64,000 bases of DNA. Source: Sulfuricellaceae bacterium (lineage in GTDB: Bacteria > Pseudomonadota > Gammaproteobacteria > Burkholderiales > Sulfuricellaceae). A program made the position numbers and the translations under genes. Location: positions 1 to 64,000 of the forward strand of contig JAUYFQ010000158.1 of the NCBI GenBank assembly GCA_030690895.1. Reading direction: 5' to 3'. The notes under the pieces were generated by a model. That model was not told where the DNA came from and searched no databases. It saw nothing but the letters and a program-made list of their open reading frames with translations. Below are positions 33,837 through 60,808 of the stretch, one piece after another. The first letter of the stretch is position 1, and each line of letters begins with the position of its first letter.

Positions 33837-33983
33837 AGTTTAACCACGGGGTACACGGGGGGCACGGGGAAAACAAAGGCTTGGAAGTGGTTTTTTTTGG
33901 GGAGGACACCCATTGGGTGATAGGCCGTACTTTTATAGCCCATTGAATTCCCCCGTGATCCCCGTGTACCCCGTGGTTAAACT
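33837..33983. mobile_element. MITE-like element, copy 1 (147 bp)
   Basis: The ends are long inverted repeats starting AGTTTAACCACGGGGTACAC and continuing with few mismatches for about 33 bp. The core contains CCCATTGGGTGATA and a T-rich stretch. A second copy in reverse orientation is at 60667-60808. No transposase is encoded. The rest of the gap 33593-34009 shows no gene; it holds the amt upstream region and the pyrD leader. Confidence 0.75.
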
Positions 33984-34009
33984 GCTTTTTTAAGGATAAA
34001 GATTCGCTC

Positions 34010-35043: not shown

Positions 35044-35208
35044 AACTGTTCAGGTGGTCATTACCCATTGAAAAATAACGACAAACCCGTTCGGCCTGAG
35101 CTTGTCGAAGGCTATTATCGGTGTGAAAATTGCGGTTCGACAAGCTCACCGCGAACGGTGGTTTTTTTGAAACAATGCCTTACAAGAAAAATGCCTACCT
35201 GAACAGTT
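35044..35208. repeat. repeat element with 12-bp terminal inverted repeats and inner REP
   Basis: AACTGTTCAGGT at 35044-35055 and its perfect inverse ACCTGAACAGTT at 35197-35208 bound a 165-bp segment. Inside lies a REP-type hairpin, CCTGAGCTTGTCGAAGG pairing with GGTTCGACAAGCTCACCG (about 35096-35159), of the same family as 58932-58993. No coding content is visible. Confidence 0.65.
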
Positions 35209-35229: not shown

Positions 35230-35356
35230 TTGCCATCAGACCCCCTCTCCCATTGGGGGAGGGCTGGGGTGGGGGAGACTTTCATGGTGAAGTGCTGTCG
35301 CTTGGAAGCGCCTACTTTTGGTTCATAATTTGGGGCGGTACTTCACCATGAAAGTT
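35230..35356. repeat. CTCTCCC hairpin plus 80-bp inverted-repeat element, copy 1
   Basis: A CCCTCTCCCATTGGGGGAGG hairpin precedes an 80-bp element (35277-35356). Its ends ACTTTCATGGTGAAGT and ACTTCACCATGAAAGT are perfect inverse arms, with the core CGCCTACTTTTGGTTCATAA. The same combination occurs at 38682-38793. The right end of this copy lies 3 nt before the ald start chosen here. Together with the preceding repeat, it explains the gap 35027-35359. Confidence 0.7.
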
Positions 35357-38612: not shown

Positions 38613-38681
38613 ATTTTTCTCCCGGCGGGGAGTATACCCCGGCAGTTAGCGTAAAACTCGCGAAGCGAGCCTGCGTCCCTC

Positions 38682-38793
38682 TCTCCCTATGGGAGAGAGT
38701 AAGGAGAGAGGGAAACTGGCATGACGAAGCGCTGTCGCTTAGAAGCGCCTACTTTTGGTTCATAATTCGGGGCGGCGCTTCGCCATGACAGTT
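38682..38793. repeat. CTCTCCC hairpin plus 80-bp inverted-repeat element, copy 2
   Basis: CCCTCTCTCCCTATGGGAGA starts the hairpin part, followed by an 80-bp element (38714-38793) with the same core CGCCTACTTTTGGTTCATAA as the copy at 35277-35356. Its arms are diverged (AACTGGCATGACGAAGC / GCTTCGCCATGACAGTT). Its right end meets the stop codon of the small gene at 38792. Confidence 0.7.
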
Positions 38794-44669: not shown

Positions 44670-47600
44670 TCACGCCGTCGCCCACATCGCCGACAACAAC
44701 TCAGCCTGCGCCAGCACAGTTTTCGTCGCTTCTTCCTGCAAATCCGGCGGGAAGCCATGTTTTTTGAGGATGCGCTTCACCATCACCTTGATTCTGGCTC
44801 TGGCACTTTCGCGGACGGACCAGTCGATGGTCACGCTCTTGCGGACTTGGGTCACGAGTTCGGCAGCGATGACTTTTAGCTCGTCATTCCCCATGGCTTG
44901 CACTGCACTCTCGTTGGCAGCAAGGGCGTCGTAGAAGGCGATCTCATCGTCGTTCAGGCCGAGATCCTGGCCGCGCTTGGTAGCGGCATCCATTTCCTTG
45001 GCCAGATTAATGAGCTCCTCGATCACTTCCTGCGTGGCGATAGCGCGGTTGTGGTAGGCGTTGAGCGTGCTCTTGAGCATCTCGCTGAACTGGCGACTTT
45101 GGACAAGGTTCCTCACTGAACGCAGCTTGATCTCGTCCTTAAGCAGCTTGGCCAGCAGTTCGGCGGCAACGTTCTTGTGCTTCAGGCCGCGCACTTCGGC
45201 GAGGAACTGCTCCGAGAGAATCGAGATATCTGGTTTCTTCAAACCTGCGGCGGTAAAGACGTCGATGATGCCTTCGTTGGCCATGATGGCCGTAGACACG
45301 AGCTGACGTATTGCAGCGTCGATTTCTTCCGGCGGACGTTGCGTGCCGGAGGTTTTTGCGAGCTGCGCCTTGATGGCCTGGAAGAAGGCGATGTCATCAC
45401 GTAGCTCAATGGCTTCATCCGTCGCGGCGCAGAGGGCAAAAGTGCGGGAAAGGTCGGTCACTACTTGCACAAAGCGTTGCTTCCCGTCTTCCTGCTGCAA
45501 CACATGCTCTTGTCCGGCGGGAATCAAGCCGAGGCGTTCGGCGGAAGTGCCGGTCGTCCACTTGTCCCAGTTGAAGCCGTGCATGATGGCGCAGGCCACA
45601 TCGTGCTTCTCCTGTATCACCGCAATGGCCTGGGCGGTATCAATGCTCGGACTGCCTTGGCCGCCGCTCTCGGTATAGGTGGCAAGGGCATGTTTCAATT
45701 GATCGGCAAGGCCGAGGTAATCCACCACCAGGCCGCCGGGCTTGTCACGGAACACGCGGTTCACTCGCGCAATCGCCTGCATCAGGCCATGGCCGCGCAT
45801 CGGCTTGTCGGCATACATCGTGTGCAGGCAGGGTGCGTCGAAGCCCGTCAGCCACATATCGCGCACGATCACGATGCGGAACGGGTCTTTACTGTCCTTG
45901 AATCGGGTCGCCAGTTCACGGCGGCGCGGCTTGTTGCGGATGTGTGGTTGCCAGTCAGGGCCATCGTCGGCACTGCCGGTCATCACGATTTTCACCACGC
46001 ACGCCTGCTTTTTTTCAGCCTCGATATCGTCATCCTTGGCGCTGGCCCAGTCGGGGCGAAGCTTGATGATGGCTTTATAGAGGTCTACGCAGATGCGACG
46101 GCTCATGCACACCACCATCGCCTTGCCATCCATGGCTTCAAGGCGGCGCTCGTAGTGCTGCACGAGATCCTCGGCAATGATCGCGACACGTTTGGGGTCG
46201 CCAACCAGCGCCTCCAGTGCGGCCCATTTGGTTTTGAGCTTCTGCTTCTTGTCTTCCTCCTCGCCCTCGGTGATCTCGTCGAATTCCTCGTCAATCTTCG
46301 GCAGCGCGGCCTGGTTCAGCGACAGCTTGGCGATGCGGCTCTCGTAGTAGATCGGCACCGTCGCCTTGTCTGCCACGGCGCGCTGGATGTCATAGATGCT
46401 GATGTAATCGCCAAAGATCGCTCGCGTATTAGCGTCATTCTTTTCGATGGGTGTGCCGGTAAAGCCGATGAAGGACGCATTCGGCAGCGCATCACGGAGG
46501 TTGCGCGCCAAGCCGTCGATCAGGTCGTATTGGCTGCGGTGGGCCTCGTCGGCAATCACCACGATGTTCCGTCGTGGCGACAGCTCGGGCATCTTCTCGC
46601 CCTTGTCCGGCATGAATTTCTGGATCGTGGTGAAGACCACGCCGCCGCTGGCCACTTGCAGCAGCTCGCGCAACTGCTCGCGGCTCTCTGCCTGCACCGG
46701 CATCTGGCGCAGCAGTTCATGGCAGCGCTGAAACTGGCCGAAAAGCTGGTCGTCCAGATCGTTGCGGTCGGTGAGCACGACTAATGTAGGGTTCTGCATC
46801 ACCGGATGCCGCACGACGCGCGCAGCGTAAAACAGCATGGAGAAGCTTTTGCCAGAACCCTGTGTATGCCACACCACTCCAGCGCGGCGGTCGCCCGGTT
46901 TGCCGCCGTGCATTCTGCCCGCCCAGTAGGCGCCGAGTTCTTGGTGCAGGTGTTGATCGTCTGCCATGCCGCTTGCGCGCACCGTTTCCTCCACGGCAGC
47001 GTTCACGGCGTGGAACTGGTGATAGCCCGCGATGATCTTGTGCAGGCGGTCACTGTCCGTGTCCTCTTCGAAGACGATGAAATGCTGAAGCAGATCGAGG
47101 AAACGGCGCGGCTCGAATACGCCTCGCACCAGCACGTCCAGCTCAAGCGCCGCCTTCGGTGCATCGCCCTCACCAACTATCGTGCGCCACACCTTGAACC
47201 ATTCCTGGTTGGCTGTGAGCGAGCCGATACGCGCACTCGTGCCGTCGGATACTACCAGCACTTCGTTATAGTGAAACAAGCTGCCGATTTGCTGCTTGTA
47301 GGTTTGCAGTTGGTTGAACGCCGACCAGATCGTCGCATCTTCATCCGCTGCGTTCTTCAGTTCGATCACTGCTAGCGGCAGGCCGTTGACGAAAACTACG
47401 ATATCAGGCCGACGATTATTTTGACCTTCGATCACCGTGAACTGGTTTACCGCCAGCCAGTCGTTGGCTTTGGCGTTATCGAAATCTATCAGCCGCGCAT
47501 GATCGCCCGCGATGCTGCCATCTGCGCGCTGGTATTCCACCGGCACCCCATCGCGCAGCATGGCGTGAAAGTTCCGGTTGGTCTGCGTGGGTGAAGGCGT

Positions 47601-47834
47601 TCCGACACGCAGCACCTTACGTAGTGCATCTTCGCGTGCTTCTTCCGGGATAGTCGGATTTAACCGCCAGATGGCCTCGCGCAACCGTCCCATCAGCACC
47701 ACATCGCTAAACGAATCCCGCTCCGCCGCAGGTTCGCCGGGTGCCATATGCGGCCCGTGGCCGATGGTATAGCCCAATTCCCCGAACCAGGTCAGGGCGG
47801 CGTCTTCTACGATGGATTCGTTGAGTGTGGGCAT
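44670..47834 (-). CDS. hsdR: type I restriction enzyme subunit HsdR
   Basis: HsdR translocates DNA and cuts unmodified DNA as part of the HsdR2M2S complex. The 1054-residue protein has an N-terminal PD-(D/E)xK nuclease (D144, E158, K160 in IELKN), an SF2 translocase with [10 protein letters not shown] near residue 325, DEAH in [16 protein letters not shown] and later helicase motifs, and a C-terminal HsdM-binding helical region. It is intact. It is the last gene of the island, 293 bp after the gene at 48128, so it may have its own promoter. Confidence 0.96.
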
Positions 47835-50173: not shown

Positions 50174-52314
50174 TTCCGCCTACGCTTTGTTTTCTTGGCG
50201 AGTAGAGCCTGGAGCTTCTCTACGAGACTATCAGGATAGTCCTCGATGAAACTCTCACCCGACTCGAGCGACGCAATAATGTCGGCGAAGTTGTTTCTCC
50301 GCTTAGCACTTCGATCTTGCTCCGCTTTCGACATGTCACGGTTTACGGTCGTCATTGTCTTCCGCTCCTCTTCGGTCGGGTAGCGGAAGTGTAGCGCGAA
50401 ATTCTCTGCCTTCGCCTTCTCAAATTCTCCCTTCAGGGCAGACATAGACCTCCCTACTCCGAGAACCCGAACCCATGCTTTGGAGCGAGTGATTGCCGTA
50501 AAAAGGCGATTTCTGGCGCGGGCAGCATCCCGTGGCAATAGAGCCCCAAAACAGTCTTGTGCATTGATTATATAGACCATGGCTGCCTCATTACCCTTAG
50601 CGCGGAAAATACCAGTAAAGGTCACCGTTCCCGGCTCGGTGAAGACGTCGGCGATTGTCGTTACACCCGCAAGATTCGAGTTGATTCCCATCTGCATCAG
50701 GGTCTGCCGAGCAACTCCGACTGCATCCTTCGTTGTTAGCGGGTCGGGATTTATGACAACGATATCGTCTGGAATCAGCTCATCTTCAGTCAGATTTCGC
50801 TTAATTTCTGCAACAAGCCATGCGGTTTGTGCTTCGAGCGTCGCGAAGACCTCAAACTGAATCAAGTCTTCCACCTGCGAATGTTTCTCCAGGAATTCCG
50901 GGCTGGATTTTGGTGTGCGATTGAGAGTGACAAGTTCGCCGTCCTCGATTTCTCCATCGTTCTCTTGATAACCGATATCGAACCAGAGGTTCTTGTTCTC
51001 AAAGATTTGAACAAGGCCCTTGTCGCGATAAATCCCAAATCCAAGTGCATGGGCTGTGGACAAAACAGGTCTGGAGTTGCGATAGCAAGTGTCGAGAATG
51101 ATGTCTTGCTTGGGTTTTCCTGCCTCAGGGGAGTGAATAATGACACGGGCCGTTCCATCCGTGTTCTTACCAAAGATTTCTTCGACGGGTGGGAGCGATC
51201 TGTTCCCGAGGTTCTGCAACTCGTCATATGCGTAGACTAGGCGCTTTGGCTCCTTGAGGTATTCGTAACAGAGCAACAAGAAATTGGGCGAGAAATCCTG
51301 CGCCTCATCAACCAGGACCGCATCGTATTTCGGCACGAATTGTTTGGCGCCTTGAAGGGCGATGTCACATGCACCCTCAAATGCCTTGTCGGATCCAAAG
51401 CGATCCTTTGCCGTTCCAAAATCCAAATACTCGACACCATGGTCACGGCAGAACTCGTAGTAGATGCCTGTGCGGTCTGTTCCACCAGGAGCACCCCAAG
51501 CATTCAGGATTCTGATTTTGTCCCAGTCAGGTTCTTCGTTTGCCTGTTCCAGCACGAACGTAGTGATGAGGTTCTCGAACTGCTTCTTCAGTGACCGGGT
51601 GTTGAATGTCACCGCGATGAACCAGTCACGATGGCGTGCGTGCAAGTAGGCAACCTTCAACGCCAGAACGATAGTCTTACCACATCCGGCAAGCCCACGA
51701 ATGCGCTGAACGCCTTCAAACGTTTCCACCACGGCCGCGCTCTGCTGACTATCGAGATTGGCAATCGAATCCTCCAGCGCCTTGATCTTGGTGCCTCGCG
51801 AATTCTGATTGTGGAGTTCCCGCTTTTTACGGCCCCTACGCAGCGTGGAAATTGCCTGAATAACCGAAACCAGTGATGGGAAGACCTCCGGGTCGAAAGC
51901 ATCCAATTCTTCGATAGCCGACACCAGATTGTCGGCATTGCAGAGGAGATGCTCCTCGTCGCCATCAAGTTGTGCGATGGCCGGCGCAAATGTGACAGTG
52001 TGAATATTGACGAGGAGCTTTCGCTTCCGAATCAAGGTCTGATGCTGGAACAGTTTTGCCTGCATCTTATTGAACCCCTCGTCCTGCACCTCGGCGTAAT
52101 CCGGGAGGGTCTTGCCTTCAACGACACTAAACAAGACCAGGCCTTTGGTCGGCGATACCAGCAACGCATCTATCGGAAAGGAGCCTTCGGGCGTGCCAAT
52201 GATTGGATAGCCAATATAGAGGGTGCCTTCAAGGTTCGCTTCCGCGCTGAGAAGTTCAGCGAGCCACTTGCTCGAAACGGGCTTATCTGTGCTGCCCCAT
52301 ACGGTGTTAATCAT
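50170..52314 (-). CDS. SF1 UvrD-like helicase with N-terminal NERD-like nuclease
   Basis: The 714-residue protein starts with a nuclease-like domain (about 25-110) holding PIDALLVSPTKGLVLFSVVEGK, in which D49, E66 and K68 fit the PD-(D/E)xK pattern of NERD domains. A UvrD-type helicase follows: GLAGCGKT (Walker A), VLVDEAQDFS (Walker B), and NRLFTAITRSKAWVRVLG (motif VI). It overlaps hsdS by 8 nt and DUF2290 by 4 nt, an operon arrangement. A role in DNA degradation during phage attack is inference from context. Confidence 0.88.
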   Translation of the reverse strand: MINTVWGSTDKPVSSKWLAELLSAEANLEGTLYIGYPIIGTPEGSFPIDALLVSPTKGLVLFSVVEGKTLPDYAEVQDEGFNKMQAKLFQHQTLIRKRKLLVNIHTVTFAPAIAQLDGDEEHLLCNADNLVSAIEELDAFDPEVFPSLVSVIQAISTLRRGRKKRELHNQNSRGTKIKALEDSIANLDSQQSAAVVETFEGVQRIRGLAGCGKTIVLALKVAYLHARHRDWFIAVTFNTRSLKKQFENLITTFVLEQANEEPDWDKIRILNAWGAPGGTDRTGIYYEFCRDHGVEYLDFGTAKDRFGSDKAFEGACDIALQGAKQFVPKYDAVLVDEAQDFSPNFLLLCYEYLKEPKRLVYAYDELQNLGNRSLPPVEEIFGKNTDGTARVIIHSPEAGKPKQDIILDTCYRNSRPVLSTAHALGFGIYRDKGLVQIFENKNLWFDIGYQENDGEIEDGELVTLNRTPKSSPEFLEKHSQVEDLIQFEVFATLEAQTAWLVAEIKRNLTEDELIPDDIVVINPDPLTTKDAVGVARQTLMQMGINSNLAGVTTIADVFTEPGTVTFTGIFRAKGNEAAMVYIINAQDCFGALLPRDAARARNRLFTAITRSKAWVRVLGVGRSMSALKGEFEKAKAENFALHFRYPTEEERKTMTTVNRDMSKAEQDRSAKRRNNFADIIASLESGESFIEDYPDSLVEKLQALLAKKTKRRRK

Positions 52315-53578
52315 GGCGTAGTCCGATTTGATTGTTGATTTGCAGAGTGCCGCTCAGAAGTTGCGGAAGCAGCGTGTCGCGCAGGGTGGCGAGGGTGCGA
52401 GACTGGTGTTCAAGCGTTCGAATTTGCTCGTCGAGTGGCTTTGCTAGGTGCTCGTAGGCCGCAACTATTTCTGGTGGTGGAATCACGAAACGAAGGTTCT
52501 CAAAATTTTGTTTGTTGATGGAGCCAAATACCGTTCCCTCACCCTCAAAGAGGGCGAAGTCGGGCGAAAGGTTCTCCATCGCATGGTAGGTAAACGAAAC
52601 TGCGCCGCTTTTGTGGCGCACTGCTGCCACTCCTCGCCCAATGCAGCATTCCTCGTCCGCCATGTTGATGTCGCCAACGGGAGCACGGACGCTGACGAGC
52701 GTATCGCCGGACTTGGCATAGCGTGTTGGCGCGGTGCAATAGATTCGGCGCGTCGGAAATCGAAAGCCGAAGTCTGTTCGTCCTTGATAGAAAGGAATGC
52801 CGTTGCCGTCTTCGTTGTAGGTTTCGCCGGGCGGCGATTGGCCCATCGTGAGATTGAAACCTTCTCTGACTGTGCCTGCTGTCCATCCCTGCGGGATATG
52901 GCCGAGGGGTGATTCTTGGAAGTGGGTGGGAAAGAGCGCGGCGGTGGCGGCGTCAAGGCCAGCAGGTTTTCGCCCATCGAGTTTGGCGCGGACGGGGGCG
53001 AAATCCACGAACCAGCTCTGGAACAGAGCCCGTGCCATCGCCTCCAGCGTCGCGTTCATTCGCCGGTTCAACTCGATCTTGTCGTCCAGCGTGCCGAGGA
53101 TGTGCGCGATGGCTTTTTGTTCGGTGAGGGGTGGGAGCGTGATTTCAAGGCGCGAGAAATCGCCCTTGTTCAGGATAGGCTGCGCTGAGCCGCCCGCCGC
53201 TTGGTGACGAATCTCGTCCTTACGAGTGCTGAGGTTGTAATAGACGAACTCGTTACTGAAGCGGTCATCCACGACAATTGAATTGATTTGCTGGTTGGTG
53301 ACGCAATCGCGGCCAGCGATGACGGCTTTCCCCATGTCGGAGCCGATGCATGACACCATCACGGAGCCTGCGGGAATTTTCGCCCCTTTGATGGACGCTG
53401 CGCCGGCCTCGGTGAGATTCCGGGCGGTAGTGCTGATTGCTTTTCTACCGTCCATGTCCGACGGAGTGACGAACGGAATCTGCCCGCCGAAGTTTCCTTC
53501 GACCGCAGTCAGCGGTGTCTTGCCTGTCACGACTCGACCTAAGTCACCGAGGGTCAAGTCTTCCCAATCACCCGCCAT
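52307..53578 (-). CDS. hsdS: type I restriction specificity subunit HsdS
   Basis: HsdS carries two target-recognition domains that set the methylation and cutting site. The 423-residue protein has TRD1 (DWEDLTLGDLGRVVTGKTPL, IPFVTPSDMD), a conserved helix (LPPLTEQKAIAHILGTLDDK), TRD2 (FNLTMGQSPPGETYNEDGNG) and a second helix ending TLATLRDTLLPQLLSGTLQI. Both halves look intact. It lies downstream of DUF1016, separated by a REP element, instead of directly after hsdM. Its stop overlaps the helicase start. Confidence 0.95.
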   Translation of the reverse strand: MAGDWEDLTLGDLGRVVTGKTPLTAVEGNFGGQIPFVTPSDMDGRKAISTTARNLTEAGAASIKGAKIPAGSVMVSCIGSDMGKAVIAGRDCVTNQQINSIVVDDRFSNEFVYYNLSTRKDEIRHQAAGGSAQPILNKGDFSRLEITLPPLTEQKAIAHILGTLDDKIELNRRMNATLEAMARALFQSWFVDFAPVRAKLDGRKPAGLDAATAALFPTHFQESPLGHIPQGWTAGTVREGFNLTMGQSPPGETYNEDGNGIPFYQGRTDFGFRFPTRRIYCTAPTRYAKSGDTLVSVRAPVGDINMADEECCIGRGVAAVRHKSGAVSFTYHAMENLSPDFALFEGEGTVFGSINKQNFENLRFVIPPPEIVAAYEHLAKPLDEQIRTLEHQSRTLATLRDTLLPQLLSGTLQINNQIGLRHD

Positions 53579-53721: not shown

Positions 53722-54849
53722 TTACGCATCCCCGCCCCCCAACTCATCCACCGCCTGGTGCAGGAAGGCCGCCATCTCTTCCTTGCCCGGCAGTTGCACC
53801 TGATAGCGTGAAACGAACAAGGTATTGCTCATGCCCGCCAGCGCGTACTCGACCAGTTCGTGGTTCTTGCGGGTGCAGAGCAGGATGCCGATGGGCGGCT
53901 GGTCGTCCGCGCTCATTTCGTGCTGCTGGTAATAGCCGACGTAGCTGTTGAGCTGGCCCAGGTGTTGGTGTTTGAAGGCGTCGTTCTTGAGTTCGATCAG
54001 CACGTGGCATTTGAGGATGCGGTGGTAGAAAACCAGATCGACGAAAAAGTGTTCGCCACCGATGAGCAGGCGTTTTTGCCGCGCCTCGAAGCAGAAGCCG
54101 TGGCCGAGTTCGAGCAGGAAGGCTTGCAGCTTGTCGAGCAGCGCGTCTTCGAGATGGCCTTCGCTCATCACTTCCTGCGGCTTGAGGCCGAGGAATTCGA
54201 AGACGTAGGGATCGCGGATCACCTGTCGGCTTTGTTGCGGTTCGGCTTGGGCATGGGCGAGACGGGCCAGCGCTTCCTTGTCGGTGGAGAGGCCGCTGCG
54301 CTGAAAATACTGGGTGGCGATCTGGCGCTTGAGCTCGCGCACCGACCAGTTGCCGCGCAGGGCTTCGGCTTCGTAGAAGCGGCGCTGGAGAGGATCGTCG
54401 AGTTCCACCAGTTGTTCGAAATGGCTGTAGGAAAGGCGGTTAATCAGCTTTTCCGCGTCCATTGTTGGGACATCCGGGAATTGTGCGGACAGTGTCCGCA
54501 CTTTTTCTTCCAGCAGTATGGGGGATACGACTTGGGCAGATAGTGCGGACGGTGCCCGCACTATCTGGGGATAGGTGCGATAAAAGGCCAGGTAGCCATA
54601 AAGCTGGCGTCGTCCGGTATTGCTGACGGACTGATCGCGCAGTGCTCTGGATAACTCGGCAAGCAGTTTGTCGCCATAGCTGGCGCGATCCGCGCCTTGC
54701 AACTCGAATTCGGCGATGTAGTAGCCGATGAACCAGTTGCGCAGGGTCAGGCTGAGATTAACGGCCTTGCTGGCTTGCTCCGCCAAGGCGGAATGAGTCC
54801 GCTCAATGGCAGCGACCAGACTATCGAAATTCAGCGCTTCAGAGGTCAT
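53722..54849 (-). CDS. DUF1016/YhcG-family PD-(D/E)xK nuclease
   Basis: The 375-residue protein has the N-terminal DUF1016-N helical domain (LVAAIERTHSALAEQASKAV, NWFIGYYIAEFELQGADRAS) and a C-terminal nuclease domain with FVDLVFYHR and VLIELKND, the D...E-x-K motif. The linker around 100-125 (SALSAQVVSPILLEEKVRTL) is encoded by short GC-rich palindromes at 54483-54503 and 54541-54561. It overlaps the truncated paralogue upstream. The family often rides in type I restriction operons; its target is unknown. Confidence 0.9.
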   Translation of the reverse strand: MTSEALNFDSLVAAIERTHSALAEQASKAVNLSLTLRNWFIGYYIAEFELQGADRASYGDKLLAELSRALRDQSVSNTGRRQLYGYLAFYRTYPQIVRAPSALSAQVVSPILLEEKVRTLSAQFPDVPTMDAEKLINRLSYSHFEQLVELDDPLQRRFYEAEALRGNWSVRELKRQIATQYFQRSGLSTDKEALARLAHAQAEPQQSRQVIRDPYVFEFLGLKPQEVMSEGHLEDALLDKLQAFLLELGHGFCFEARQKRLLIGGEHFFVDLVFYHRILKCHVLIELKNDAFKHQHLGQLNSYVGYYQQHEMSADDQPPIGILLCTRKNHELVEYALAGMSNTLFVSRYQVQLPGKEEMAAFLHQAVDELGGGDA

Positions 54850-55348
54850 AACCCATCCTCAGCATGTGCCGATGCTTTGCTCGTCGGGCGGGTATCAGGA
54901 AGACATATTGCGACCAACCGAGGCGGAAGGGCATTTGTGCAACGGGCCGTTGCACAATTGGCACGGCCTCGGGCAATATGCCAGATAGCATCTGGGATTT
55001 GTGCGGTGGTGCGGGTTGGGATTTCCCAGACGGCATCTGGGATTTTTCAGGCAGGCGATCGCGGTAGATTAAGAAAAACTTGCGCATGTACTCCAGATTG
55101 CTGCGAGAAAAGCCACGCCCAAATTCGCCGGTAAGCTGATGAGCCAATTCCTTGAGTACCTGCTTGCCGTATTCCGCGCGTTGCGCCCCCTGTTGTTCGT
55201 GTTCGACGATATGCCGCCCGATTTCAAAACTCGCCATGACTTGGCAGGTATCCACCGCGCGGCTGACCGCTTGGCGCGCATCCAGAACCAGTTGGCGAAT
55301 ATGGGCATACAGCTGGGTATATGCGGTGTCTTGTGGAGATTGGCTCAT
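54839..55348 (-). CDS. truncated DUF1016-N protein
   Basis: The 169-residue frame (start MSQSPQDTAYTQLY) contains the DUF1016-N domain (LVLDARQAVSRAVDTCQVMA, GRGFSRSNLEYMRKFFLIY) and the linker, which repeats KSQMPSGKSQ and KSQMLSGILPE. It reaches FRLGWSQYVFL, where normal members continue into the nuclease, and then ends after about 20 unrelated residues. No nuclease domain remains. It overlaps the complete DUF1016 gene by 11 nt. It is either a degraded paralogue or a nuclease-free partner. Confidence 0.7.
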   Translation of the reverse strand: MSQSPQDTAYTQLYAHIRQLVLDARQAVSRAVDTCQVMASFEIGRHIVEHEQQGAQRAEYGKQVLKELAHQLTGEFGRGFSRSNLEYMRKFFLIYRDRLPEKSQMPSGKSQPAPPHKSQMLSGILPEAVPIVQRPVAQMPFRLGWSQYVFLIPARRAKHRHMLRMGYDL

Positions 55349-55506
55349 GGTTGATACCACATCATGTGATTCATGCTGGCAAACAAAGCGTATTCGAATC
55401 TGATCATTTTTGCCCCCACCATCCAATTGTGCAAGCGTCCCTTGCACAAGTTACCGCTTCGATAATTTGCCAGCCAGTGTGGCAATCATCTGGAATGATG
55501 GATTTT

Positions 55507-57123
55507 CTAGAAGGCATGGCCGAGCCCTTTCAAATTTTTCCGAATCGCCTGCTCCAGTTTTGCGGACTCGGCGAATTGCCCATTCAATTCGGCCACCAGG
55601 CGAGTCATTTTTTCCTCGAAGGGTTCGCCGTCGTTTTCGAATTCTTCCGCGCCGACGTAGCGGCCAGGCGTGAGGACGTAGCCGTGTTGTTTGATCAGGT
55701 CGAGGTCGGCGGATTTGCAGAAGCCGGGGGTGTCTTGAAACGCCCCCTCTCCCCAGCCCTCTCCCGCGAGGGGAGAGGGAGTTAATGGGTCGCCGCGCCA
55801 GGCATGGTAGGTGCTGACGATTTTGGCAATATCGGTATCGGTCAATTCGCGATGGACACGGTCGATCAGCGTGCCGAGTTTGCGGGCATCAATGAACAAC
55901 GTCTGTTTGCGGCGATCACGGCGTTTGCCGTCATGTTTGTTTTTCGTGAGGAACCACAGGCAAACCGGAATCTGCGTGCTGTAGAAGAGCTGGCCAGGTA
56001 GCGCGACCATACAGTCCACGAGGTCGGCCTCGATAATGGCTTTGCGGATGTCGCCTTCGCCGGACTGGTTGGAGGACATGCTGCCGTTGGCCAGCACAAA
56101 ACCAGCGAAGCCATCGGCTGCGAGGTGGTGAATGAAGTGCTGCACCCAGGCGAAGTTGGCGTTGCCCTTGGGCGGCACGCCATATTGCCAGCGCACGTCG
56201 TCGTCCACGCGATGCCAGTCGGAGTCGTTGAAGGGCGGGTTGGCGATGACGAACTGCGCCTTGAGATCTTTGTGCAGGTCGCGTCGGAAGGTGTCGGCCT
56301 GCTCGGGGCCGAAATCGGCTTCAATCCCACGAATGGCGAGGTTCATGATGGCCAGGCGGCGGGTGGTGGCGTTGCTCTCCTGGCCGTAGATACTGAGGTC
56401 GCCGATGCGACCGCCGTGTTCGACGACGAATTTTTCCGACTGGACGAACATTCCACCAGAGCCGCAGGCGGGGTCATAAACGCGGCCTTTGTAGGGGGCG
56501 AGCATTTCAACGATGGTGCGAACGATACAACTGGGGGTGTAAAACTGGCCGCCGTTCTTGCCTTCGGCACTGGCGAAGCGGGTGAGGAAATATTCATAAA
56601 CCCGGCCAAGCAGATCAACCGAGCGGTGGGATTTGGCCTCCTCGCCCTCTGTGGCGGTGGCGATAAGCGTGATGGTGCCGATGAGGTCGATGAGTTCGCC
56701 AAGGCGGTGCTTGTCGAGCGCAGGGCGGGCGTAGTCTTTCGGGAGCACGCCTTTGAGGCGGGAGTTGTCGCGTTCGAGGGCGACCATGGCATCGTCCACG
56801 ACCTTGCCGATGGTAGGCTGCTTGGCTGCCGCCTGAAGCTCGGACCAGCGTGCTTCCTTGGGCACCCAGAAGACGTTTTCGGCTTTGTATTCGTCAGCGT
56901 CCTCGGGGTCGGCGCCTTCGTAGTCGCCTTTGCCCTCAAGCAGCCTGACGCGCATTTCCTCGAAAGCGTCGGAGATGTATTTGATGAAAATGAGGCCAAG
57001 GACGACGTGCTTGTATTCCGCCGCGTCCATGTTATTCCGGAGCTTGTCAGCAGCGAGCCAGAGTTTGGCCTCGAAGCCGAGGTTTGCAGCGCTGTCGGTG
57101 TTTTTTGCGGCCTTCTTCGCCAT
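55507..57123 (-). CDS. hsdM: type I DNA methyltransferase subunit HsdM
   Basis: HsdM methylates adenine at the HsdS target with S-adenosylmethionine. The 538-residue protein has the N-terminal helical domain ([20 protein letters not shown]), SAM-binding [10 protein letters not shown] and catalytic NPPF ([13 protein letters not shown]). At about residues 445-461 it has [15 protein letters not shown] between HAWRG and DTPGFCKSA, encoded by a palindromic repeat and absent in the HsdM proteins I know. The reading frame is kept. It is 33 nt downstream of the XRE gene. Confidence 0.95.
55744..55779. repeat. CTCTCCC hairpin repeat inside hsdM
   Basis: CCCTCTCCC-GCGAG-GGGAGAGGG (55757-55779), preceded by CCCCTCTCCCC, is the same class of GC-rich hairpin as at 35230 and 38682. 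Here it lies within the hsdM reading frame and is translated as [12 protein letters not shown]. Confidence 0.75.
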
Positions 57124-58931: not shown

Positions 58932-58993
58932 ATCCGTTCGCCCTGAGCCTGTCGAAGGGTTGTTCATGGTTCGACAAGCTCACCACGAACGGG
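58932..58993. repeat. GAGCCTGTCGAAGG REP hairpin
   Basis: CCGTTCGCCCTGAGCCTGTC and the inverse GGTTCGACAAGCTCACCACG form a REP-type hairpin in the gap between ahpF and katA. The same family occurs inside the element at 35044-35208. It may attenuate read-through from ahpF. Confidence 0.75.
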
Positions 58994-59052
58994 CTTTTGC
59001 GCCGCACGATTTCACCTAATGGATAATCTCGGTTGAACACTACTCGCACCGC

Positions 59053-60630: not shown

Positions 60631-60666
60631 GGTGTTTTCCTTCGTTTCAGTGATTCTTAAAAAGCA

Positions 60667-60808
60667 GGTTAACCACGGAGTACACGGGGGGCACGGGGAA
60701 ATTCAATGGGCTATGAAAGTACGGCTTATCACCCAATGGGGATTGCCCAAAAAACACTTCTAAGCCTTCGCCTTCCCCCGTGCCCCCCGTGTACCCCGTG
60801 GTTCAACC
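60667..60808. mobile_element. MITE-like element, copy 2 (142 bp)
   Basis: GGTTAACCACGGAGTACACG at the left and its near-inverse CCCCGTGTACCCCGTGGTTC at the right bound the element. Its reverse complement matches 33837-33983 along the whole length, including CCATTGGGTGATA and CCGTACTTT. It separates ahpC from ahpF and may reduce read-through. Confidence 0.75.

Follow-up and report, generated by a model that had tools for sequence, protein, structure and literature searches.

Rickettsia palindromic elements (RPE) are in-frame insertions that encode a peptide, and both inteins and free-standing homing endonuclease genes place a nuclease within a host gene. We know of no settled mechanism by which palindromic repeats spread without a RAYT. 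REPINs and RAYTs themselves have been described (accessible parts of PMC3116915 and PMC8266576), and GTAG and CGTC REPs have been found inside genes, including a near-identical site in recB of two Xanthomonas species (accessible part of PMC3733652). The ShiLan insertion in a phage DNA methylase is, according to the available part of its description, kept open, with no self-splicing recognised and with a homing-type endonuclease (PMC11855218). The CTCTCCC motif considered here is absent from the main text of PMC3733652 and from the RepRanger paper (PMC12306157), as far as the accessible portions of these sources extend.

The window, that is, the whole 64,000-nt stretch of Sulfuricellaceae DNA analysed here, carries on the minus strand at 55507..57123 the hsdM gene for the 538-aa methyltransferase subunit of a type I restriction-modification system. 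The type I assignment follows from the HsdM_N (1.2e-26) and N6_Mtase (8.1e-106) Pfam domains and from the presence in the same cluster, likewise on the minus strand, of hsdS for the specificity subunit (52307..53578; Methylase_S) and hsdR for the restriction subunit (44670..47834; HSDR_N, SWI2_SNF2 and T1RH-like_C). A pattern search places within hsdM a palindromic element of 37 bp (55743..55779, minus strand) which, on the coding strand from 55779 down to 55743, consists of the hairpin CCCTCTCCC-CTCGC-GGGAGAGGG, with a 9-bp perfect stem and a 5-nt loop (together the 23-bp perfect hairpin at 55757-55779), followed by the tail CTGGGGAGAGGGGG. By translation and in the modelled structure, the corresponding codons 448-460 (55744..55782, minus strand) specify a 13-residue peptide in a loop that we denote loop C, and six-frame translation shows every frame of the element to be open. 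The sequence-only reading of this DNA, which had reported an in-frame palindrome in hsdM, is confirmed on this point, with the frame kept; its estimate of about 15 extra residues was too high, the net gain being 11 residues over the modal loop. The intergenic relatives that it had announced near 35230 and 38682 were recovered by pattern search on the plus strand, at 35241..35277, with the identical hairpin-plus-tail design and 3 mismatches, and at 38677..38713, a more diverged sequence (CCCTCTCTCCC type) with 2 mismatches and another tail.

With up to 3 mismatches, the 23-bp hairpin pattern has 4 matches at 3 places in the window, compared with a mean of 0.02 in 100 shuffles, and the window's genome contains 71 CTCTCCC(3-8)GGGAGAG hairpins, compared with 1 match to a reversed-pattern control. 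Folding energy of the 61-nt stretch as a lone strand gave no separation from shuffled sequence (z -1.08; 32/200 shuffles equally stable), so that we call the element real because of its exact inverted repeat and the repetition thereof. An Rfam search returned 3 matches up to E 1, all well under the gathering scores. As in the case of RPE, the palindrome lies in frame in a conserved ORF and is missing from most homologues. We conclude that the hsdM palindrome is a member of a genomic palindromic repeat family located in frame inside an HsdM loop.

Other repeats were seen in the window. Two DUF1016 (YhcG-type) ORFs beside hsdM each contain a near-perfect short coding palindrome (54537-54567 and 54932-54960), so that HsdM is not alone among the protein families of the cluster in having palindromes in coding sequence, and similar hairpins are present in hsdM-adjacent ORFs of L002 and L071. 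A 202-aa ORF at 54839-55447, in which only the N-terminal part of DUF1016 is matched, adjoins the fuller DUF1016 gene at 53722-54849 and is possibly a truncated duplicate. Another palindromic repeat (GGTTCGACAAGCTCACCNCGAACGG type) has copies at 35083-35158 and 58968-58996, the latter being read as FDKLTTNG in a mechanical ORF that may be no gene. Two inverted copies of an 82-nt repeat, which itself has inverted arms (AACCACGG.GTACACGGGGGGCACGGGGAAA type), are separated by 26.7 kb (33837-33990 and 60659-60807), and repeats with AAAAGGGGACAGATTTATTTTC lie at 285-368, 1776-1848 and 2087-2170, including one 82-nt pair with 98% identity.

In the AlphaFold model of the window HsdM (mean pLDDT 74.8, pTM 0.67), no secondary structure is present between a helix at residues 429-443 and a strand at 469-473, and pLDDT drops below 50 at 453-459, as it does in five other segments. 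The best solved structural match, and also the best PDB match of the gene product, is HsdM 3khk (Z 33.2), in which this loop is short. The suggestion that the insert occupies a tolerated surface loop thus holds in part: judging from the model, the insert probably sits in a tolerated, floppy loop that is unstructured and of low pLDDT, surface exposure being a prediction. We infer that the loop is functionally neutral.

To place this insert among its homologues, we used a sample of 279 hsdM loci representing 254 distinct genes, 238 of them close, in 232 of which loop C was measured between the LFIDAR and LTPGRY blocks; part of the sample consists of the best 80 of 586 homologues, with no random draw. 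The 6 unmeasured cases (L164, L179, L270, L272, L294 and L304) include one with a long, repeat-bearing loop (L272) and one that ends early (L179). The usual loop C is short (WRGDKGAGxYxD), as in 177/232 homologues, and exceeds the mode by at least 8 residues in the other 55. Perfect hairpins (stem of at least 9, loop of 3-8) reach a density of 1.62/kb in loop C (20 in 12.3 kb, from 15 genes), compared with 0.54/kb in a second HsdM loop, loop B (6 in 11.0 kb), and 0.037/kb in the remaining hsdM sequence (13 in 348 kb), so that loop C is ~43 times denser than the latter; the values for flanking ORFs of at least 250 aa and for other flanking DNA are 0.069/kb (18 in 262 kb) and 0.285/kb (62 in 218 kb), respectively. 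Inverted repeats are significant against shuffles (p<=0.01) in 23 of the 55 long loops and in 4 of the 177 short ones, which offer less power.

The long loops contain peptides that we take to be translated repeats of several kinds, namely, PSPLAGEG (from CTCTCCC), RHSREGGNP/VIPAKAGI, VRPEPVEG, HCEEQSDAAIQ, PPFEKGG, VGAPLVGAQ and GIGFQPV, in some cases in tandem (VGAGLVPA x4 in L156, GIGFQPV x3 in L051). In addition, L012 has a CGTC palindrome in a loop extended by fewer than 8 residues. Hosts of repeat-bearing loops include Gallionellaceae (L031), Burkholderiales (L033), Rhodanobacter (L049), Deltaproteobacteria (L068), Nitrospira (L085), Planctomycetota (L051 and L079) and Omnitrophota (L104), with the proviso that most HsdM hosts are metagenome-assembled, so that contigs might be wrongly binned and single host assignments may be wrong. 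On the gene tree (FastTree, built with the loops left out and with no support test), 42 changes are required between extended and short loops, and at least 13 for the CTCTCCC inserts; the CTCTCCC loops number 17 with L068, the tree classification, which considered sense-orientation peptides only, having counted 16 (L068 under "other"). Inspected by eye, the 15 aligned CTCTCCC loops always carry the unit in one orientation, none of the 55 extended loops has a reversed solo unit, and L034 and L174 each have two units, the first of them tailless. Thus, across several phyla, repeat families unrelated to one another have entered HsdM loop C time and again, and the initial description of a curiosity in a single gene, correct as to the in-frame palindrome, was too narrow. 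Similar repeat peptides were also observed in two separate HsdM loops of L183 (GATGRSPL), L101 (SEAGSVP), L174 and L034, which look as if one genome's repeat reached both tolerant loops.

Long loops that are unrelated to the window's insert might make the latter unremarkable, and among six relatives at 84-92% identity (L002, L003, L031, L034, L004 and L032) four indeed have loops that are long. However, three of these four carry repeat-family sequence (CTCTCCC in L002 and L034, VRPEPVEG type in L031); by the inverted-repeat test only L034 passes p<=0.01, with values of 0.04 for L002, 0.27 for L031 and 0.95 for L004. Given that three of the four long loops are repeat-derived and that 177/232 loops are short overall, the comparison with homologues does not overturn the insertion reading. 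The recurrence on the tree, along with the Gly-rich reading frames seen by eye in most CTCTCCC cases, would also be compatible with a recruited segment that tunes HsdM, through subunit contacts or anti-restriction escape, with selection for loop variation. We consider such recruitment highly improbable, because sequence and length of the segment are arbitrary between lineages, because most homologues do without it, and because the segment is modelled at low confidence.

The copy numbers of the repeats bear on how the insert reached hsdM. The strict hairpin is found inside the hsdM ORF in 11 of 17 genomes and in none of the other 6. In four genomes, a large part of the copies falls within hsdM (3/4 in L034, 2/3 in L295, 3/6 in L174 and 1/2 in L146), compared with 0 to 3 out of totals of 4 to 251 in the remaining thirteen. 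The sole match to a strict CGTC-type pattern falls within hsdM in both G050 and G454; elsewhere, this pattern has 1 match in the L104 genome, 2 in the L049 genome, 5 in G716 and none in G664, and the VRPEPVEG-type pattern has 2 matches each in the L031 and L085 genomes and 7 in G630. The scarcity of copies outside hsdM implies that, in some genomes, the unit is present without a large resident repeat source. Probably, hsdM moves between genomes with the insert aboard, which would explain the genomes with few copies. In L003 (85% DNA identity), a left flank like that of the window (ATTAAC) is followed directly by AGAGGGG, 7 bases that match the element tail. Going by sequence comparison, this site is possibly a scar, which in-frame loss of ~30 bases plus small changes would yield, or else possibly a site that was never hit by an earlier insertion.

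In two homologues, L228 and L295, loop C holds in frame a DUF559 domain (PF04480, Vsr/homing-type), a family in the same nuclease superfamily as E. coli Vsr. In L228, the Pfam match covers positions 3-108 of the 109-position profile; in L295 it covers 27-108, as the piece scanned began inside the domain and the alignment shows the remaining part. At the left end of both copies lies a hairpin-plus-tail unit, and the right end, when reverse-complemented, is the same kind of unit (flank match inverted vs direct, 27 vs 13 in L228 and 18 vs 15 in L295). The 15 aligned CTCTCCC loops have the orientation of the left end of these DUF559 copies, and the alignment shows that the solo unit in the window shares the hairpin and tail architecture with the units beside DUF559. 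The two genes are 74% identical in the DUF559 part and 70% in the HsdM part, and the two copies may share one ancestral insertion. In the L228 model, which has a mean pLDDT of 65.8 and is poor outside the DUF559 part, including the methylase part, residues 501-600 are predicted to form a separate domain (block means 63-87) beside stretches below 50.

HsdM is not the only host. At six loci, Pfam matches place DUF559 within a single ORF, between domains of the host protein: two MmeI-type methyltransferases, L330, located on contig 87 of the window's own genome (flank match inverted/direct 46/8), and L379 (18/12); a type ISP enzyme, L323 (31/21); an asparagine synthase, L322 (22/16); and two YgiQ radical SAM proteins, L326, where the direct match is the better (21/31), and L329, which has no matching pair (7/7). 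In L322, L323, L326, L329 and L379, a host domain is matched in two stretches, and a further comparison gave the YgiQ name for L326 and the asparagine synthase name for L322 as well. The long DUF559 ORFs of L348, L375 and L381, which by their composition resemble spurious alternative frames, and that of L380, apparently a run-on into a neighbouring gene, were taken off this list; L319 (YgiQ-like on the right side), in which the left side is cut off, and the C-terminal fusions L331 (TatD) and L332 (DnaG) were left uncounted as in-frame insertions. By eye, the L330 ORF also displays further repeat-like peptides, LSPRGRAGEGE, SSPSPLGGGVGEG and LPNPPPEGEG. Profile comparison links DUF559 to 3hrl and, at low strength (E 0.005), to the mobile-intron protein 3r3p; PADLOC and PHROGs gave weak partial matches for two DUF559 domains, and a Pfam scan of eight ORFs returned no splicing domain.

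The association of DUF559 with palindromic units extends beyond these in-frame cases. In 61 related genomes, PF04480 matches 62 places, of which we used the 50 scoring at least 78 bits. A CTC motif of the CCCTCnCCC type is present on both sides of DUF559 at 21/50 loci compared with 0/1017 random placements, and any perfect hairpin on both sides at 22/50 (28/50 being without) compared with 0.7%; in a Planctomycetota set of 22 DUF559 loci, one per genome, the values are 7/22 vs 1.7% for the motif and 6/22 vs 1.4% for the hairpin, the random placements overlapping one another and being drawn from the same loci as DUF559. When the 50 DUF559 domains are clustered at 70% identity, 28 groups result, and in 12 of these at least one locus has the motif on each flank. 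The flank repeats belong to several sequence families, beyond CTCTCCC. Strong DUF559 matches are found in 26/29 genomes with at least 5 CTC hairpins and in 5/32 others, leaving 3/29 CTC-rich genomes without a strong match and 5/32 CTC-poor genomes with one; outside the window's own family, the association persists (7/8 vs 5/31 genomes, p 3.6e-4).

We therefore favour, at a probability of roughly 0.5, the reading that a mobile repeat family, the larger form of which is a DUF559 nuclease between two hairpin-plus-tail units, is represented in hsdM by a solo unit. A simpler account would dispense with a dedicated mover: slippage or template switching would spread the units, a near-unconstrained loop C would collect any sequence, and DUF559 genes would be passengers among repeats. 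Consistent with this account are the many families in one loop, the 32/55 extended loops that fail the inverted-repeat test at p<=0.01, the tandem peptide repeats of L156 and L051, and the finding that DUF559 flank units are direct as often as inverted: inverted matches are better at 15, direct matches at 16 and both are equal at 1 of the 32 matching loci, where the stem, being self-complementary, says nothing on orientation. Matching units, inverted or direct, are nevertheless present at 32/49 DUF559 loci (one of the 50 lacking enough flank) and at 0/119 controls, or, counting inverted matches alone, at 27/49 and 0/101, and DUF559 occurs together with its units inside host ORFs of several kinds, so that we regard spread without a mover as improbable.

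The other account to be weighed is that of a plain REP or REPIN, a palindrome moved in trans by a RAYT (Y1_Tnp) in the manner of GTAG REPs, which happened to land in a permissive loop. Precedents for GTAG and CGTC REPs inside genes have been published (accessible part of PMC3733652), Y1_Tnp matches are present in 42/61 relatives, with 4 in the window's own genome, and Y1_Tnp presence tracks the number of CTC hairpins across all 61 genomes (25/29 vs 17/32, p 0.006), a relationship that fades outside the own family (6/8 vs 16/31, p 0.43) and is broken by G040 and G056, which lack a Y1_Tnp match in spite of their 14 and 26 CTC hairpins. The CTC hairpins of G058, in the part of the matches listed, are often paired ~90 bp apart, resembling a REPIN doublet. 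However, the CTC motif lies within 200 bp of 0/27 Y1_Tnp ORFs on either side (at most one ORF per genome, 3/30 loci having given no ORF), and the window's element, with 15 bp on each side, is devoid of GTAG and CGTC in either sense, while some other hosts' loops contain CTAC or CGTC somewhere. On balance, movement by a RAYT seems an unlikely source of the hsdM insert.

Returning to the DUF559-linked reading, we infer that DUF559 moves the units and that solo units derive from DUF559-bearing forms. Under this scenario, DUF559, as a PD-(D/E)XK nuclease, would cut DNA, and repair would copy the element, thereby spreading the units; solo units could arise by losing the middle or by copying one end. 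With a stop-free unit, frame-keeping insertions would persist wherever a floppy Gly/Glu/Pro stretch is tolerated by the protein, and the HsdM loop that precedes the conserved CKS...LTPGRYVG block would be such a place. In the material analysed, no movement was observed, no target duplication was seen and no pair of strains with and without the element was found. Because the units occur in mixed orientation, the picture of one element bounded by inverted ends is weakened, and a composite, in which units of other origin surround a passenger gene, is a possible alternative that would look alike; furthermore, loop C also takes repeat families beyond those examined for a DUF559 partner. Going one step further, we tentatively propose, as a possibility, that DUF559 and its hairpin-plus-tail units form a separate class of prokaryotic mobile elements that insert in frame without splicing, add a domain to the host protein on floppy linkers encoded by the repeats, and are the source of solo CTCTCCC-type palindromes, with restriction-modification methyltransferases, HsdM loop C above all, as a safe harbour across phyla.

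Intragenic REPs are known, and, within the literature covered, which is mostly without subscription journals, the HsdM hotspot and the DUF559 link are new: neither a link between DUF559 and palindromic repeats nor the hotspot was found among the papers listed, as judged by titles and the opening parts of abstracts, and the PSPLAGEG peptide was not found in the literature searched. A DUF559 nuclease flanked by the same palindromes, and read in the frame of host enzymes, is a concrete candidate carrier and open to testing in vitro. The HsdM homologues further provide a natural catalogue of loops into which segments, and even a whole domain, can be added. They also call for caution in annotation, in that peptides of the kind seen here, for example one of 12 residues, are translated repeats and not protein motifs.

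How, then, does this system relate to those already described? With REPs and REPINs and their RAYTs (TnpA-REP), which lie mainly in intergenic DNA and occasionally within genes, it shares palindromes that are short, GC-rich and present in many copies, either alone or paired (accessible parts of PMC3733652 and PMC3116915); it differs in having no GTAG/CGTC tag and no CTC motif by the 27 Y1_Tnp ORFs, the recurrent partner being DUF559. A DUF559 protein of Caulobacter, VsrA, is described as a Vsr-like repair-type nuclease in a paper whose text does not contain the string "palindrom" (PMC12907096). The weak 3r3p match is a point of likeness with inteins and homing endonuclease genes, from which the present elements are set apart by the lack of a splicing domain in the ORFs scanned and by the flanking hairpin units. 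The nuclease of ShiLan is of the HNH type and lies in another frame, according to the accessible part of PMC11855218, whereas DUF559 is read in the host frame, has palindromic unit ends and is found in several kinds of bacterial genes. RPE resemble the hsdM insert in being palindromes that lie in frame and encode peptides, and they are discussed alongside coding REPs beyond Rickettsia in the accessible part of PMC3733652. What distinguishes the present case from RPE is the other sequence and lineages, the recurrence, across several phyla, at a single loop of a single protein, and the existence of nuclease-bearing forms.
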